Shown one piece after another: positions 24,387 to 30,295 of a stretch of 64,000 nt of DNA; within the stretch, counting starts at the first letter, position 1; each line of letters starts with the position of its first letter. This stretch comes from Kaistia dalseonensis (GTDB lineage: Bacteria; Pseudomonadota; Alphaproteobacteria; Rhizobiales; Kaistiaceae). The position numbers and the translations under genes are program-made. Below the pieces are notes generated by a model that had not been told where the DNA came from, searched no databases, and saw only the letters and a list, made by a program, of their open reading frames with translations. Where the stretch lies: contig NZ_JAUSVO010000003.1 in NCBI RefSeq assembly GCF_030814715.1, forward strand, positions 496,001 to 560,000, read 5' to 3'.

Positions 24387-24908
24387 TCACGTCGCCTTGG
24401 CGGCGTGCGAGGGGACCAGCTTGTCGATCTGCGCTGCGAACAGGGCAGACGCATAGGCGAAGCAGGCGCCGATGATCATCGAGAACGGGATCAGGATCAG
24501 TGCATTCCGGCCAGTCGCCGACAGCATGACCTCCGGTGTGAAGGCATCGGCATTCTGTGTCAGGAAGGCAAAGGTGCAGGCGTAGCCATAGGTGACGGCC
24601 GGTATCGAGGCGAACAGCCTGATATGAGCCGCCAATATGTAGATGAAGATCGAAAGGGCGACGATCGTGGCGCCCCAGACCGGGCCGCCAGGAAACGACA
24701 CGAGGGCCAGCCCCGCCGCCCAGGCGACGACCACGCCAAACACATTGGAAATGATCGTCGTGCGAAACGCGGTCGCATCACCGCCGGAGTGGTAGAAGCA
24801 GGCCCATGCGACGAAGGCGGCCCAGATGAGGAATGCGTTCGTGGCCATGAACAGCCATGTCGCGACGCCGCCCAGAAGGGCGACGCTGATGGCAAGGGGA
24901 ATGATCAT
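24387..24908 (-). CDS. DUF1097-like membrane protein
   Basis: A 173-residue protein with five or six hydrophobic segments (PLAISVALLGGVATWLF, WAAFVAWACFYHSGGD, NVFGVVVAWAAGLALV, GRNALILIPFSMIIGACFAYASALF). The WAAFVAWACFYHSGG region and overall plan resemble DUF1097 inner-membrane proteins of unknown function (such as YcdZ of E. coli). ATG 24908 has AAAGG 8 bases upstream; the longer frame to 25187 runs into the activator gene. Its place between the nitrile hydratase genes and the cobalt permease suggests a transport role for substrate, amide or metal, which is inferred from position only. Confidence 0.65.
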   Translation of the reverse strand: MIIPLAISVALLGGVATWLFMATNAFLIWAAFVAWACFYHSGGDATAFRTTIISNVFGVVVAWAAGLALVSFPGGPVWGATIVALSIFIYILAAHIRLFASIPAVTYGYACTFAFLTQNADAFTPEVMLSATGRNALILIPFSMIIGACFAYASALFAAQIDKLVPSHAAKAT

Positions 24909-25024
24909 TGCGAAAGCCTTTCGAACCTGAGGGATGGCAATAGTCACCCGCATCCGGCGCGGCGGGATGGCCGTGCGCGCCGGATCGGTATTGCGGACCG
25001 TCGGATCCGGCGCATGCCGGAGAC

Positions 25025-25378
25025 CTAGATCAGTTCGACGCGGCTTCGCGTCTGGAATTCCTCCGTCCGGCGGTCGAGCTCTTCGGCCGAGATCAGCCCC
25101 TGGCTGAGAACGAGCTTCTCGAAGGCTGCGAGCCACTGCTCGTAATAGTTCCAGGTCTCGTCGTCCGGCGTGTGAGACTTGTCCCACGCACCGATCGTCG
25201 AGATCAGGCTCTGGCGGAAGGATTCCCAGGGATAGGTCTTCGCCTCTGCGAGCGCGAGCGCCATGCCGAAAGCACGGCCTTGCCAGGGCTCGTCGAACTG
25301 CAGGCTTTCGCAGTTGCGAGGCAGCGCACCGACCCCCTCGCGCAACTCATCGACATAGGTTTCCGTCGAAGCGTTCAT
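25025..25378 (-). CDS. Nitrile hydratase activator/accessory protein
   Basis: A 117-residue homologue of the NHase accessory proteins (P14K/NhlE type) of cobalt nitrile hydratases. FDEPWQGRAFGMALALAEAKTYPWESFRQSLISTIGAWD is characteristic and also resembles the N-terminal part of NHase beta subunits, from which these proteins derive. Such proteins escort the alpha subunit and help insert cobalt and oxidise the active-site cysteines, by subunit swapping. It follows nthA by 18 bases, giving the order beta, alpha, activator that is usual for the Co type. Confidence 0.85.
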   Translation of the reverse strand: MNASTETYVDELREGVGALPRNCESLQFDEPWQGRAFGMALALAEAKTYPWESFRQSLISTIGAWDKSHTPDDETWNYYEQWLAAFEKLVLSQGLISAEELDRRTEEFQTRSRVELI

Positions 25379-25396: not shown

Positions 25397-26026
25397 TCAG
25401 GCGGAGACGAGGGCGAGGCCCTGCATGGCCTCGGTCGAAACAAGGGCCGCGAGCTTCTCCTCGGACCAGCCATCCGTATCGGCGGGACGCTGGGGAATGA
25501 CGAAGTAGCGGACCTGCGCGCTGCTGTCCCAGACAGCGATGCTCTTGTCCTCGGGCAGCGTGACGCCGAAATCGGAGAGGACAGCGCGGGGTTCCCGGAC
25601 GACGCGGGCGCGGAAGACCGGGTCCTTGAACCAATAGGGCGGGAGGCCGAGCAGAGGCCACGGCCAGCACGAGCAGAGCGTGCAGCAGACGATGTTGTGA
25701 ACGTCTTCCGAATTCTCGACGACGCGGAGGTTCTCACCTTCGATGCCGTCTTTCAGGCCGAGTTCGGCGATGCCCTTGTTGGCGTCGGCCAGCAGCCGCT
25801 CCTTGAAGGCGGGATCGGTCCAGGCCTTGGCCACGACCTTGGCGCCGTTGAACGGGCCCATGTCATGTTCGAAGAAGTTGATGACGCGGTCCACCGTATC
25901 GGTGCCAATCAGGCCTTTCTCCCGGAAGAGGGATTCGAGTGCCTTGGTCCGCGCGGCGTAATAGGTCTCGCTTTCGCGCAGGTGGTGATGGTGGCCGTCT
26001 TCGTCGTGATGATGATCGTCGCTCAT
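25397..26026 (-). CDS. nthA: Nitrile hydratase alpha subunit, cobalt type
   Basis: Catalytic subunit of nitrile hydratase, which hydrates nitriles to amides in the cytoplasm. The 209-residue protein carries the metal claw in IVCCTLCSCWPWPLLG: the Thr in CTLCSC marks the low-spin Co(III) type (iron enzymes have Ser), with the second and third Cys becoming sulfinic and sulfenic acids. An extra Cys precedes the motif. The N-terminus has a metal-binding-looking run, HHHDEDGHHHH, absent from classical enzymes. YWFKDPVFRARVVREPRAVL is typical. Lies between the beta subunit gene and the activator gene. Confidence 0.95.
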   Translation of the reverse strand: MSDDHHHDEDGHHHHLRESETYYAARTKALESLFREKGLIGTDTVDRVINFFEHDMGPFNGAKVVAKAWTDPAFKERLLADANKGIAELGLKDGIEGENLRVVENSEDVHNIVCCTLCSCWPWPLLGLPPYWFKDPVFRARVVREPRAVLSDFGVTLPEDKSIAVWDSSAQVRYFVIPQRPADTDGWSEEKLAALVSTEAMQGLALVSA

Positions 26027-26088: not shown

Positions 26089-26763
26089 TCAGGCGGCCTC
26101 GAGGTAGGCCTCGAAGAAGTCGTTGTACAAAACGTCCTGCGTATCCGGGATATCCGACCAGATATCGCGCGTCTTGAACTTGACGAGATAGACCGGCTGC
26201 GCCGTTCCGATGCCGTCGGTGGGCACGTTGTCCGCGTAGAGATACGCGCCCTTATAGACGACATCGACCGTGCCGACCTTGTTGCGCAGATATCCGGGCA
26301 ACCGCGTATGCACGGCCGGCGGCATGTCCTTGACGCGCACCATGTCGCCCGCCTTGAAGACGGGATTGGTGACGACGTCCCGGTAGGGATTGGCGCCGCG
26401 GTAGAAATAGTCGACGACGCGCTGGGTGATCTCGGCATTGCCGGCATTGGGCAGTGCTGCGGTCGGATTATTGAGGAAATATTTGGTCTTTTCCTCGATT
26501 TCGCTCTGCGAGAGATAGCCGCGATCGACCAGGAACTTGCAGATGCCCCCGAGCCATTTGATGTAATAGCGATACTTGAAGTAATCGAGCGGATTCATTC
26601 CTTCCGCCAGGACGCGCAGATCGGGCCAGGCCCAGATTCCCGTCCCCATCATCGTCGAATGCACCGCGAAGAGCTGGGCTTCCCAGGGCTCGACGAAGAC
26701 GCGCTTCTCGACCTTGACGGGGCCGAGCCCCTCGATGCCGCCCAAATAGTGTTGGACTTTCAT
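26089..26763 (-). CDS. nthB: Nitrile hydratase beta subunit
   Basis: The 224-residue beta subunit. It starts MKVQHYLGGIEGLGPVKVE, equivalent to the MNGIHDxGGxxGxGPV start of the family, followed by PWEAQLFAVHSTMM, WPDLRVLAEGMNPLDYFKYRYYIKWL, and a C-terminal SH3-like barrel with DMPPAVHTRLPGYLRNKVG and Y..FKTRDIW. The ATG at 26763 has GGGAG 8 bases upstream; an in-frame ATG at 26778 overlaps that ribosome site. First gene of the leftward operon; a roughly 300-base leader with a terminator and candidate AmiR-binding hairpins precedes it. Confidence 0.94.
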   Translation of the reverse strand: MKVQHYLGGIEGLGPVKVEKRVFVEPWEAQLFAVHSTMMGTGIWAWPDLRVLAEGMNPLDYFKYRYYIKWLGGICKFLVDRGYLSQSEIEEKTKYFLNNPTAALPNAGNAEITQRVVDYFYRGANPYRDVVTNPVFKAGDMVRVKDMPPAVHTRLPGYLRNKVGTVDVVYKGAYLYADNVPTDGIGTAQPVYLVKFKTRDIWSDIPDTQDVLYNDFFEAYLEAA

Positions 26764-26967
26764 TGTCTTATCTCCCATTGCGCCGGTTTGGGCGCGCCGC
26801 TCCGGCTGAGCGGAGCCGGCGAACCGCAGAATGAAGCTCTGGATGAGGCCGATCACGCCCGGTCGATACCGGGGCAGGAACAGCGGTGGATCCAGTCGCA
26901 TGCGGGCTGCTGCAGGAGGCCGATCGGGGTCTGATGTCGATGAAAGTCATAGCGACCATCCAACGCG

Positions 26968-26997
26968 AAAAGACCCGACAGCGTCGTGCTGCGGGCT
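26968..26997 (-). terminator. Attenuator terminator in nitrile hydratase leader
   Basis: Reading leftward, the stem CCCGCAGC pairs with GCTG, one bulged T, and CGGG (8 bp), followed by TC and TTTT. It lies about 205 bases before the nthB start, so the operon can be expressed only if this terminator is read through. Its 5' arm overlaps the second candidate antiterminator hairpin. Structure and flanks match the terminator before amiC, including a single bulged base at the same place. Confidence 0.65.
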
Positions 26998-27052
26998 ACA
27001 TTGCCAATTCCAGGATAAAGGAGAGTTGGCGCCTTTTTGGGCAGCTCTGCCC
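26994..27052 (-). ncRNA. Candidate ANTAR (AmiR) antiterminator element, nitrile hydratase leader
   Basis: ANTAR proteins bind two RNA hairpins with six-base loops having A at position 1 and G at position 4. On the minus strand GGGC-AGAGCT-GCCC (27052-27039) and GGC-AATGTA-GCC (27005-26994) both fit. The second overlaps the first bases of the terminator, so the two are mutually exclusive. The TTGGCAATGTAGCCC segment is almost identical to the one before amiC. Only inspection supports this. Confidence 0.55.
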
Positions 27053-27057
27053 GGCGT

Positions 27058-27095
27058 CTATAAATTAGACTGCTACGCCGGCTGCGATGTGTCAA
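27058..27095 (-). promoter_or_regulatory. Promoter-like element of the nitrile hydratase operon
   Basis: TTGACA (27095-27090) is followed by GTAG 13 bases later and TCTAAT-TTATAG further on. The same arrangement, TTGACA...GTAG...CCTAAA, precedes amiC on the other strand (27191-27222). The spacing to the TAA-containing hexamer is 20 bases, longer than usual for sigma-70, so the exact minus-10 is uncertain. Confidence 0.4.
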
Positions 27096-27190
27096 GCAGG
27101 TTTTTGATGCCGGCGAAATTGTCGGCCATGCAATCGGCGACGCGCCTTGCGCCCTCCGCCACCGGCGAAAACGGGCAAGAATATTCAGGC

Positions 27191-27222
27191 TTGACAAGCG
27201 GCCACGTTCCGTAGAGCCTAAA
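27191..27222 (+). promoter_or_regulatory. Promoter-like element of the amiC-amiR-amidase operon
   Basis: TTGACA (27191-27196) with GTAG and CCTAAA (27217-27222) downstream, matching in layout the divergent promoter at 27058-27095. The conserved layout suggests co-regulation or shared promoter recognition. Confidence 0.4.
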
Positions 27223-27230
27223 TCGGAGGC

Positions 27231-27311
27231 GCAGAGCAAGGATGCTCAGTTTCGCGCCATTCTACCCTGTACATAGGCGCCGCCAGACCAGCGGCCTTTG
27301 GCAATGCAGCC
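27231..27311 (+). ncRNA. Candidate ANTAR (AmiR) antiterminator element, amiC leader
   Basis: First hairpin: GAGC-AAGGAT-GCTC (27234-27247), extended by a CAG/CAG-flank pairing. Second hairpin: GGC-AATGCA-GCC (27300-27311). Both six-base loops have A1 and G4, the ANTAR consensus. The second overlaps the terminator's 5' arm (27308-27314). The linker is long (about 50 bases) and contains another GC hairpin, so the first hairpin is less certain than the second. Confidence 0.5.
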
Positions 27312-27340
27312 CTCAGCCGTTTCGGTTCGAGGGCTTTTTT
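27308..27340 (+). terminator. Attenuator terminator in amiC leader
   Basis: Rho-independent terminator: AGCCCTC and AGCCG pair with CGGTT, a bulged C, and GAGGGCT around a TTT loop, followed by TTTTTT (27335-27340). It ends 18 bases before the amiC start, too close to be the end of another gene, so it must regulate amiC by read-through. Confidence 0.85.
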
Positions 27341-27357
27341 CGTTCTGAGGAAGCGGC

Positions 27358-28515
27358 ATGGCGTCGTCGAACTATCGCATCGGGTTGATGTTCTCCTCGA
27401 CGGGGCCTTACAGCATCGTGGCGGGCGCCATGCTCAACGGCGCGCTGCTGGCTGTGCAGGAACTGCGCGAGAGCGGCGGGCCGGTCCAGCTCGAGCCCGT
27501 CGTGGTCAATCCCGGCGGCGATCTCGGCCGTTATGCGCCGCTGAGCGCGAAACTGCTCGGCTCCGGCATTCGCCAGGTCATCGGCTGCTACACCTCGTCG
27601 AGCCGCAAGGAAGTGATCCCCTGCTTCGAGAAGTATGACGGTCTGCTCTGGTATCCGTCGCACTATGAGGGTTTCGAGAGCTCGGACAACGTGATCTATA
27701 CCGGCGCGGCGCCTAACCAGCACATCCTGCCGCTGATTGATCATCTCATGGCGGAATTCGGGAATCGCGCCTTCTGCATCGGGTCCAACTATATCTGGGC
27801 GTGGGAAAACAACCGTATCCTGCGCGAGGTCGTGACAGCGCGCGGCGGCAGCGTGGTGGCCGAGCGCTACCTGCCGGTCGGCGAAACCGAGCTCCAGCAA
27901 TTGGTGGACGCCGTGCTCGACGCAAAGCCGAGCTTCGTGTTCAGCTCGTTGATCGGCAATAGCGGCTATGCCTTCTTCCGCCTGTTCCGCGCTGCCTGTC
28001 TCGCCCGCGGCATCGACCAGCCCCGATCGATCCCGGTCGCGAGCTGCAATCTGTCGGAGCCGGAACTGGTCGAGATCGGCGAAGGCGCAATCGACGGTCA
28101 CCTGAGCTCGAGCGTTTATTTCTCGACGGTCAAGAACGCCTCCAATGAGCGCTTCGTGACCAACTATGCCCGCGCCTTTCCCGACAAGCCGCTCACCTCG
28201 GCCGATGCCGAGGCCTCCTACATCGCCGTCAAGCTGCTGGCGCTGGCCCTCCAGGAGGCCGGCACCGACGAAAGCCGCGCGGTCAAGGCGGCTGTCGGGC
28301 ATCAGCGGCTCGCCGCGCCGCAGGGCGAAGTCTGGGTCGATACAGAGACATTGCATTGCTATCTTACGCCACGCATCGGCAAGTCGCGATCCGGGGGGAC
28401 CTTCGACGTGATCATCGAGGAAGAATGTCCGGTCGCGCCGGACCCCTATCTCGTCCGCTCCTCGCCGCCCACGCCCTGGTCGCTGACGGCCCCTCTCCTG
28501 CGATTGGCGCGCTGA
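27358..28515 (+). CDS. amiC: AmiC-like amide sensor (periplasmic-binding fold, cytoplasmic)
   Basis: A 385-residue protein without a signal peptide and with the type-I periplasmic-binding fold: RIGLMFSSTGPYSIVAGAMLNGALLAVQEL, VIGCYTSSSRKEVIPCFEKYDGLLWYPSHYEGFE, and FCIGSNYIWAWENNRILREV, all close to AmiC of Pseudomonas and the NhhC/NlhC regulators of nitrile hydratase operons. AmiC binds AmiR and holds it inactive until an amide is bound. A GAGGAAG ribosome site precedes ATG 27358, and the stop overlaps the amiR start (TGATG). Confidence 0.9.
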   Translation: MASSNYRIGLMFSSTGPYSIVAGAMLNGALLAVQELRESGGPVQLEPVVVNPGGDLGRYAPLSAKLLGSGIRQVIGCYTSSSRKEVIPCFEKYDGLLWYPSHYEGFESSDNVIYTGAAPNQHILPLIDHLMAEFGNRAFCIGSNYIWAWENNRILREVVTARGGSVVAERYLPVGETELQQLVDAVLDAKPSFVFSSLIGNSGYAFFRLFRAACLARGIDQPRSIPVASCNLSEPELVEIGEGAIDGHLSSSVYFSTVKNASNERFVTNYARAFPDKPLTSADAEASYIAVKLLALALQEAGTDESRAVKAAVGHQRLAAPQGEVWVDTETLHCYLTPRIGKSRSGGTFDVIIEEECPVAPDPYLVRSSPPTPWSLTAPLLRLAR

Positions 28516-29165
28516 TGGCGCCGCGGGTCGTCCAGAACTTTCGCGGTAGCCGTGCGCTGGTCATCGCCTCGGATGGCGGCTCGATCGACACATTGGACGC
28601 GACTCTGATCAAGCTCGGCCTCACCGTCGAGCACCCCGCGATCGCCGACGGCCTCGTGGAACTCGACATGCGCACGCTGCGCGCCGAAGCCGACATCCTG
28701 TTCATCGACGGCGATCTCGGCGTGACGCTCGCCTGCGAGAGCCAGGCCGATCGCCTGCCGCCCGTCCCGGTCATCGGCCTCGTCGGCGTCGAGGCGCCCG
28801 GCCGGCTGAAGGCGCTGCTCAACCAGGGCGCGACCGCGTTCCTGCGCAAGCCGGTGCATGTCGGCGCCGTCTACACTACGCTGTTTCTCGGCATCAACCA
28901 GTTCCTCCAGCGCCGGGACCTGGAACTCCAGCTCGACGATCACCAGAAGCGCCGCCGCCGGCGGCGCGTTGTCGTCAAGGCGATCGTGCTGATGATGCAG
29001 CGCGACGGCCTCGATGACGAGGAGGCCTATGCCCAGTTGCGCCGGGACAGCATGCGCGTGCGCTGCAGTCTCGAGGACTATTGCGAAGACTATCTGAACT
29101 GCCGGTCAACGACGACCGTGGATGTCCCCTCCGCCGAGCCGCGACTCCTGGCCGACCGGAGATAA
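28515..29165 (+). CDS. amiR: AmiR-like ANTAR antitermination regulator
   Basis: A 216-residue response-regulator-like RNA-binding protein. The N-terminal receiver-like domain lacks the normal phosphorylation pocket, as in AmiR; a coiled coil follows (QRRDLELQLDDHQKRRRRRR) and the C-terminal ANTAR helices read VVVKAIVLMMQRDGLDDEEAYAQLRRDSM. ANTAR proteins bind twin hairpins in nascent RNA and prevent terminator formation. Two leaders with such hairpins and terminators flank this module. Start ATG 28515 overlaps the amiC stop; the longer frame upstream lies within amiC. Confidence 0.92.
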   Translation: MAPRVVQNFRGSRALVIASDGGSIDTLDATLIKLGLTVEHPAIADGLVELDMRTLRAEADILFIDGDLGVTLACESQADRLPPVPVIGLVGVEAPGRLKALLNQGATAFLRKPVHVGAVYTTLFLGINQFLQRRDLELQLDDHQKRRRRRRVVVKAIVLMMQRDGLDDEEAYAQLRRDSMRVRCSLEDYCEDYLNCRSTTTVDVPSAEPRLLADRR

Positions 29166-29305: not shown

Positions 29306-30295
29306 ATGTCTTGGTTCGATAATTCGATCATGGTGCAAAGAGGCGTCGCCAAGGGCCGTACGGGCACGTCCCATTCGATCACCGAAGCCTCGCAGGGCAA
29401 GTATCATTATGTCTATGGGCCCTATGCCGCGCCGGTACTGCGGGTTGACCCCGGCGCCGTCATCTCGGCCGAGACGCATGATGCGATGGAAGGGCAGATC
29501 CGCTCCGAAAGCGACATGCCGAGCGACATACTGAACTTCCCGTTCCTCAATCCGCAAAACGGGCCGATCTTCGTCAATGGCGCCGAGAAGGGCGATTGCC
29601 TGGCCGTCCACATCAAGGAGATCGTGCCGCGCGGGCCCCAGCCGGTCGGCACGACCTGCGTGATGCGCGAGTTCGGCGGATTGGTGGGAACCGGCGAGAC
29701 CGCCATGCTGAACGCGCCGCTGCCCGAGATCGTCAAGAAGGTCGAGGTCGATCCCGTCACGGGCATCAAGTGGAACGACAAGATCACCCTGCCCTATGAG
29801 CCCTTCATCGGAACGATCGGCACATCGCCCGAGATCGAGGCCATTTCCTCGCTGCATCCCGACTATTACGGCGGCAACATGGACCTGCCCGACATTGCGC
29901 CGGGCTCCATCATCTATCTGCCGGTCAATGCGCCGGGCGCTCTGCTCTATCTCGGCGACTGCCACGCCACCCAGGGCGACGGCGAGCTCTGCGGCTTCGC
30001 CATCGAGCATCCGACCGTCACCACCGTTCAGGTCGACCTGATCAAGGGGTGGACGTTCCGCTGGCCGCGGCTGGAGAACGAGCGCGTGATCATGACGATC
30101 GGCTCCGGCCGGCCGATGGAAGACGCGGCCCGCATCGCCTATCGCGAGCTAATCCGCTGGATGGCGGCTGATTACGGCTTCGAGGAAATGGACGCCTATA
30201 TGCTGCTCACCCAGGCCGGCCGCATCCGCGTCGGCAACATGGTCGATCCCAAATACACACTCGGCGCCTCGATCGCGAAGTCGCTGCTGGTGTAG
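29306..30295 (+). CDS. fmdA: Acetamidase/formamidase
   Basis: Cytoplasmic amidase of the FmdA/AmdA family, which hydrolyses short amides to acid and ammonia. The 329-residue product shows the family's VDPGAVISAETHDAMEGQI region, LGDCHATQGDGELCG (metal-binding and catalytic region) and the C-terminal AYMLLTQAGRIRVGNMVDP. The ATG at 29306 has GGAG upstream; the frame extends to 29081 inside amiR. It is 141 bases after amiR, with no terminator seen between, so it probably belongs to the same antiterminated transcript and finishes the nitrile to amide to acid route. Confidence 0.9.
   Translation: MSWFDNSIMVQRGVAKGRTGTSHSITEASQGKYHYVYGPYAAPVLRVDPGAVISAETHDAMEGQIRSESDMPSDILNFPFLNPQNGPIFVNGAEKGDCLAVHIKEIVPRGPQPVGTTCVMREFGGLVGTGETAMLNAPLPEIVKKVEVDPVTGIKWNDKITLPYEPFIGTIGTSPEIEAISSLHPDYYGGNMDLPDIAPGSIIYLPVNAPGALLYLGDCHATQGDGELCGFAIEHPTVTTVQVDLIKGWTFRWPRLENERVIMTIGSGRPMEDAARIAYRELIRWMAADYGFEEMDAYMLLTQAGRIRVGNMVDPKYTLGASIAKSLLV

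Follow-up and report, generated by a model that had tools for sequence, protein, structure and literature searches.

Can one antiterminator open both halves of a nitrile-degrading route that is transcribed in two directions from a single intergenic region? The question is raised by the window (the whole stretch of DNA analysed here, 64 kb long), in which a nitrile hydratase operon on the minus strand and an amiC-amiR-amidase operon on the plus strand are separated by 594 bases, and these bases hold two outward-facing leaders. Both leaders have the same order of parts, namely a TTGACA box, a first hairpin (HP1), a linker, a second hairpin (HP2) and a terminator. Our main reading, which we hold with a probability of about 0.8, is that both are ANTAR-type antitermination switches, one for each divergent transcript, and that a single AmiR, the product of the plus-strand gene, reads both.

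The divergent locus and its two leaders

On the minus strand, the predicted operon would run from the beta subunit of nitrile hydratase (26089..26763, ATG start at 26763; TIGR03888, 214 bits against a cut-off of 152.2) through the alpha subunit (25397..26026; TIGR01323, 280.5 bits, cut-off 249.85) and an accessory protein (25025..25378; TIGR03889, 84.5 bits, cut-off 46) to a DUF1097 membrane protein (24387..25187; Pfam PF06496), the true start of which is uncertain within this ORF. The metal motif of the alpha subunit is CTLCSC, of the cobalt type, and its best match among solved structures is a cobalt enzyme; with both subunits above cut-off, this motif and the accessory protein, the enzyme is classed as a cobalt-type nitrile hydratase. 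On the plus strand, amiC (27358..28515) encodes a protein that matches AmiC (1pea) over nearly its full length (E 4.5e-63), and by homology it would be an amide sensor and negative regulator. The start of amiR (28515..29165; Pfam ANTAR, 43.5 bits) overlaps the amiC stop in TGATG, and a member of the AmiC family and an ANTAR-domain partner thus lie side by side as an AmiC-AmiR pair. The match of this AmiR to AmiR 1qo0_D is weak (E 0.00042), and its AmiR_N domain (PF21332) scores 20 bits, below the curated cut-off of 27. The amidase that follows (about 29306..30295) belongs to the acetamidase/formamidase (FmdA/AmdA) family; the broad family PF03069 alone fits, as the protein reaches 71.6 bits with the formamidase FmdA equivalog NF045496, for which the cut-off is 500. 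Among 10 other genomes of the genus listed, a nitrile hydratase alpha subunit was observed in two, both far weaker matches (E about 1e-56); because occurrence within the genus is patchy, the divergent locus was probably acquired horizontally.

In the nitrile hydratase leader, the TTGACA box, similar to a -35 element, lies at 27090..27095 (minus strand). HP1 (27029..27056) has an upper stem GGGC/GCCC (27052-27039) with the loop AGAGCT, and its lower stem CGCC/GGCG closes a one-sided internal loop of 5 nt. HP2 (26994..27005), the putative antiterminator, reads GGC-AATGTA-GCC, and the intrinsic terminator (26968..26996) consists of GCCCGCAGC..GCTG-T-CGGGT and a T-run, with a predicted fold of -14.7 kcal/mol. 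In the amiC leader on the plus strand, the corresponding parts are the -35-like TTGACA box at 27191..27196, HP1 at 27228..27258 (upper stem GAGC/GCTC, 27234-27247, loop AAGGAT; lower stem GGCGC/GCGCC), HP2 at 27300..27311 (GGC-AATGCA-GCC), again a putative antiterminator, and an intrinsic terminator at 27308..27340 (arms 27308-27335, T-run to 27340), for which the fold is -17.9 kcal/mol with a z of -5.5 against shuffles. An additional hairpin GCCGC/GCGGC is predicted in the linker of the amiC side (27279..27295); three pairs of a hairpin of this sort appear in the consensus fold, where pair-preserving changes are few and some pairs are broken. Taken as a whole, each leader folds with a free energy only modestly better than that of shuffles (z -2.6 and -2.3), and 5/200 shuffles fold as well in each case.

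All four loops have six bases with A at position 1 and G at position 4 (A1 and G4), and the sequence bears out the initial annotation both for the upstream hairpins and for the AATGTA and AATGCA hairpins, which overlap the 5' arm of the terminator in each leader. This arm has GCC in common with HP2 in both leaders, and therefore HP2 and the terminator would be mutually exclusive. Two further claims stood in part. Both leaders do share TTGGCAATGYAGCCC, but this 15-mer is a local feature without conservation among relatives. In these, HP2 is often GGCACAGTCGCC in one leader and GGCAGCGACGCC in the other leader of the pair, and the conserved part is GGC-A..G..-GCCC. The bulged terminator base, said to be at the same place in both, does lie in the 3' arm of both, but it follows five outer pairs on the minus strand and seven on the plus strand.

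A scan for HP1, HP2, an overlapping terminator and a T-run found exactly two sites in the 64 kb, which are these leaders. The same scan on 300 dinucleotide shuffles gave a mean of 0.01 sites, with one site in three shuffles and two sites in none. A stricter version had found the plus-strand site only, since one base precedes the T-run on the minus strand; the criterion was relaxed in the same way for the window and for the shuffles. A covariance-model search, which the initial annotation had proposed as a check, gave a divided answer: Rfam had no match at gathering score over the whole window and two irrelevant sub-threshold sRNA matches over 26700-27700, whereas our own models recovered the leaders. 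One of these models (R1) was built from both leaders and the other (R2) from nitrile-hydratase-side leaders only; their E-values are rough, by the tool's own warning. In the 5.18 Mb host genome, where 150 of 3815 first-look candidates were scored, R1 gave two clear matches, which are these leaders (E 5e-20 and 9e-16; both were in its training set), and the next match had E 0.33. With R2, for which 150 of 1460 first-look candidates were scored, the amiC-side leader was found at E 0.00135 and the next match at 1.35, so that training on leaders of one side was enough to retrieve the leader of the other.

Occurrence and conservation in relatives

From the 147 relatives obtained with AmiC as the query, we retained the best 80 named loci; nitrile hydratase and amiC-amiR-amidase are arranged divergently in 10 of these 80. 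They come from Azospirillum sp. B506 (L004), Xanthobacter (L005, L006), a Beijerinckiaceae MAG (L007), Hansschlegelia (L016, L051), Methylopila (L018, L019), Ancylobacter gelatini (L024) and Chelatococcus sambhunathii (L025). Both leaders are present in all 10. Eight of these loci had been used to train R1, and L006 is nearly identical to L005; L004 was in the training set of neither model, and both of its leaders were found (E 5.9e-13 and 2.3e-8). R2 matched the amiC-side leader in 10/10 (E 8.7e-7 to 0.0066). In L007 this match lacks HP1, as it begins 24 nt too far in, and E 0.043 is reached by one unrelated stretch, hence R2 E-values near 0.01 are not dependable. The DUF1097 gene follows the accessory gene in 9 of the 10 loci, and in L004 the contig stops inside the beta subunit. 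Eight further candidates were left uncounted as sequence repeats of L019, L051, L018, L016 and L025 (L145-L149, respectively) and of L018, L025 and L016 (L087, L089, L091).

In the other 70 loci, the fetched stretches of which contain no nitrile hydratase match and reach 0.3 to 8 kb upstream, a leader lies directly before amiC in every case, at E <=0.01 in 69 and at 0.033 in L081. A second, more distant AmiC-like match is carried by 69 of the 70, mostly between amiR and the amidase. None of 23 nitrile hydratase loci of a distant clade (52-58% identity) had a leader match below E 0.1; these loci, of 3.0-3.6 kb each, are also without an amiC, amiR or amidase match. A search of 385 genomes across the class gave no other nitrile hydratase as close as E 1e-85. 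In a locus from the same order, L144 (alpha subunit 77%, AmiR 32%), nitrile hydratase, amiC, amiR, amidase and accessory gene are co-directional, and hexaloop and terminator elements stand before the beta subunit (GGC-ATCGAA-GCC) and before the accessory gene (GGC-ATCGCA-GCC). HP1 is unclear there, and the model matches reach E 0.27 and 0.041 only. Because these elements stand in a co-directional locus, L144 suggests that the link of the switch to nitrile hydratase is not tied to the divergent layout.

Conservation was followed in the divergent loci, with L006 excluded from all four alignments (A1-A4) and L004 from A3 and A4 owing to its long linker. On each strand, several loci have A-U in place of G-C in the upper stem of HP1, with both sides of the pair changed; the lower stem, which is absent from the plus side of L007, swaps between C-G and U-A or A-U. 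In shuffle controls, the percentage of paired bases and the covariation score were reached by 0/500 shuffles on both sides. The number of pairs changed on both sides was reached by 118/500 shuffles on the minus side and 4/500 on the plus side, and the number of further pair types by 500/500 and 4/500; thus on the minus side two of five measures are no better than shuffles. The stem pairs of HP2 are invariant across the divergent set, and since they never vary, covariation is uninformative there.

A six-base loop on a stem of at least 3 bp was found for 22/22 HP1 and 22/22 HP2 in the divergent set. Across its 11 loci, the window included, A1 and G4 are present in 20/22 and 22/22 loops of HP1 and in 20/22 and 21/22 loops of HP2, with the other loop positions variable; both bases are kept in 39 of the 44 loops, A1 being missing in four and G4 in one. 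The terminator of the nitrile hydratase side carries a T-run in 10 of the 11 loci. The remaining one is that of the MAG L007 (5843-5937, minus strand), where the switch is possibly lost or the sequence contains an error. Between this terminator and the start codon (26763-26967 in the window; 146-203 nt in the 10 loci compared, the window among them), neither a consensus fold nor a small ORF common to the loci was found.

The loops of the single-leader loci, largely from Bradyrhizobium and Ancylobacter, are less uniform: A1 of HP1 and G4 of HP2 are kept in 67/68 and 62/68, while G4 of HP1 is kept in 44/68 and A1 of HP2 in 27/68. Loops and spacing were counted in 68 of the 70 loci (L020 and L060 were left out), and the HP2 of L061 is probably a wrong pick. 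Judged by their loops, many Bradyrhizobium leaders have drifted from the A1/G4 rule. In loci such as L011, L022, L050 and L073 the HP2 loop is GAGGGC or similar, without A1, and the HP1 loop often lacks G4 or has seven bases, although the leader still aligns with the others. In Bradyrhizobium, either the recognition rule would have changed or the hairpins would be read differently.

TTGAC lies 35-38 nt 5' of the start of the leader match, that is of the foot of HP1, in 22/22 leaders. In 21/22 it is preceded by C (CTTGAC), a hexamer expected by chance in 0.6% of random 25-nt stretches of the window. Because of this distance, HP1 probably forms the very 5' end of each RNA, and at the level of sequence the box speaks against transcripts that start downstream of the terminators, which the initial annotation had named as a possible refutation.

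Proposed mechanism, hairpin spacing and alternative readings

The presence of both leaders in all 10 divergent loci, the pair-preserving changes in HP1 and the nearly fixed A1 and G4 support the proposal that the leaders are of the ANTAR type, and a mechanism can be outlined for the locus. Each transcript would start at or beside HP1, as judged from the promoter-like box. When amide is lacking, AmiC would hold AmiR, HP2 would not persist, the terminator would fold and both transcripts would end early. Amide could come from outside, or from nitrile via basal nitrile hydratase, and in its presence AmiC would release AmiR, a dimer of which would take the A1/G4 loops of HP1 and HP2, so that HP2 stays folded. 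Folded HP2 would keep GCC from the terminator, and polymerase would continue into nitrile hydratase on one strand and into amiC-amiR-amidase on the other. As the product of the first enzyme and the substrate of the second, amide would thereby open the whole nitrile-to-acid route and amiR itself.

The main reason for caution about this ANTAR reading is the long distance between the hairpins, a point absent from the initial annotation. In the window, 33 and 52 nt separate HP1 from HP2, and the distance is 30-85 nt in every one of the 90 leaders measured. Linkers in the Enterococcus faecalis eut leaders are 5-12 nt long and lengths of 14 or 3 nt sharply cut induction (PMC3369931), an additional 20 nt abolished antitermination in vitro (PMC8934654), and a survey of actinobacterial ANTAR RNAs kept linkers of 2-25 nt (PMC8164766), a range that the present leaders exceed. 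The ANTAR RNA motif of 2012 allows a variable linker (PMC3369931); our leaders fit this sequence-structure definition, yet exceed the linker range of the members studied. Folding of the linker was considered as an explanation and rejected. It would bring HP1 and HP2 to within 24 nt in the 22 leaders of the divergent set, but shuffled linkers (20 leaders, 60 shuffles each, L006 excluded as a near copy of L005) fold to <=25 nt in 100% of cases on the amiC side and 97% on the nitrile hydratase side, and since they fold equally short, linker folding gives no support.

Whether the switch really acts on nitrile hydratase, and whether AmiR is its reader, can be weighed from the same data. If the amiC-side leader alone were an AmiR switch, the leader of the nitrile hydratase side would be a related inactive copy or a plain attenuator, and the promoter would govern expression. 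The missing T-run of L007 and the somewhat weaker terminator of that side in the window (-14.7 against -17.9 kcal/mol) fit such an arrangement. However, on the nitrile hydratase side A1 and G4 of HP2 and G4 of HP1 are each kept in 11/11 loci, two pairs of HP1 show pair-preserving changes and the T-run is nearly always there; because a decayed copy is not expected to keep loops, pairing and T-run, we regard this explanation as improbable. The leaders could also be targets of a different ANTAR protein, which would tie the locus to nitrate. One other ANTAR protein above cut-off is encoded in the genome, a REC-ANTAR protein (G000 C4:529330) that adjoins an NMT1-like (NasS-like) protein, nitrate-binding by its name, and an MFS transporter; the names NasT and NasS are given by domain content and not by a dedicated model. 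Against this NasT-like protein as the reader, the leader class travels with amiC-amiR, being present in 80/80 of the named amiC loci examined (the best 80 of 147), no further clear copy occurs among the genome candidates scored, and an R1 scan of 7 kb around the NasT-like gene (L150, G000 C4:526000-533000) found none. Control by the NasT-like protein is thus very improbable.

With AmiR as the reader of both leaders, the spacing may be understood in two ways. One, to which we give somewhat less than even odds, is a long-linker class of ANTAR RNA, in which an extended stem would place HP1 right at the 5' end of the transcript, with 30-85 nt between it and HP2, the distance rule of EutV would fail, and AmiR would span the linker or bridge the hairpins otherwise; in the nitrile hydratase branch two leaders of this class would be used back to back, with one amide signal opening both halves. 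Rather unlikely in our judgement, HP1 and HP2 could both be needed and not be bridged by one AmiR dimer, with HP1 serving as a loading or RNA-stability element and HP2 bound separately, unlike the case of EutV. The length of the linkers compared with those of eut would be accommodated directly by such a division of labour, and so would the lower stem of HP1, which the available eut text does not mention, and the position of HP1 near the likely transcript start; it is opposed by the A1 and G4 kept alike in both hairpins of the divergent set, as expected if an ANTAR domain reads both. Since the spacing lies beyond the known range in each of the 90 leaders measured, these RNAs are a natural setting in which to ask whether close hairpins are a requirement of ANTAR proteins.

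Relation to known systems

One of the closest known systems is the ami operon of Pseudomonas aeruginosa, which has, like the present locus, an AmiC homologue, an adjacent ANTAR protein and an amidase under a leader with a terminator. In P. aeruginosa the amidase gene comes first. Here the leader is followed first by amiC-amiR, the amidase belongs to the FmdA/AmdA family, and nitrile hydratase on the opposite strand is predicted to be driven by another leader. Eight amiE-type loci were considered as a yardstick for linker length, and what they gave is too little to build on. The automatic scan gave no match in them, and one of three upstream regions could be read (L182, from a genome of another class); by eye, its hairpins are about 8 nt apart and their loops lack G4. 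In Rhodococcus rhodochrous J1, which belongs to a different phylum from the present host, cobalt nitrile hydratase genes stand beside an AmiC homologue. To our knowledge, no ANTAR leader has been described for the nitrile hydratase clusters of this strain, and our literature search found nothing on its AmiC-like regulators.

The eut locus of E. faecalis (PMC3369931, PMC8934654) likewise has paired hexaloop hairpins that carry A1 and G4, with the terminator overlapped by the second hairpin, and several leaders of one locus served by one regulator, as we propose here. It differs in its linkers (5-12 nt, as against 33 and 52 nt) and in its kinase, in place of which gene content points to AmiC-type ligand control; divergent transcripts and the lower stem of HP1 are further features of the present leaders. 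The overlap of the second hairpin with the terminator was used there as a screen for antitermination and was not demanded of every match (PMC3369931); both window leaders show it. The actinobacterial ANTAR RNAs resemble ours in their dual A1/G4 hexaloop hairpins and were found by covariance models (PMC8164766).

The statement that ANTAR control of nitrile hydratase is not a standard description agrees with the literature, in that no link between ANTAR or antitermination and nitrile hydratase appears in titles or abstracts among the matches listed, an unremarked entry in the supplementary tables of PMC3369931 being possible. The word nitrile is absent from the main text of the ANTAR papers searched for it. 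The kind of switch is known, and its use on nitrile hydratase and its stretched shape appear to be new; what we see is a known switch in a new role and in a stretched variant, and no new kind of regulation. Nitrile hydratase is an industrial enzyme, and the literature searched contained no account of its induction in these bacteria. Amide-gated antitermination, if true, would be a direct and testable account of this induction, and leaders acting in such a way would form a compact two-way expression part.

A second leader was also observed in one locus without nitrile hydratase, from Mesorhizobium sp. Root102 (L080, 7551-7632, minus strand; R1 E 0.015), where it faces away from amiC. Its HP1 is GAGC-ATCGAA-GCTC and its HP2 GGC-AATGAC-GCC, and a clear T-run is lacking. 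The genes that it points to encode an ABC transporter, an arginase-family hydrolase and an M20 peptidase, and in this locus the back-to-back layout may therefore be used for a different nitrogen substrate.
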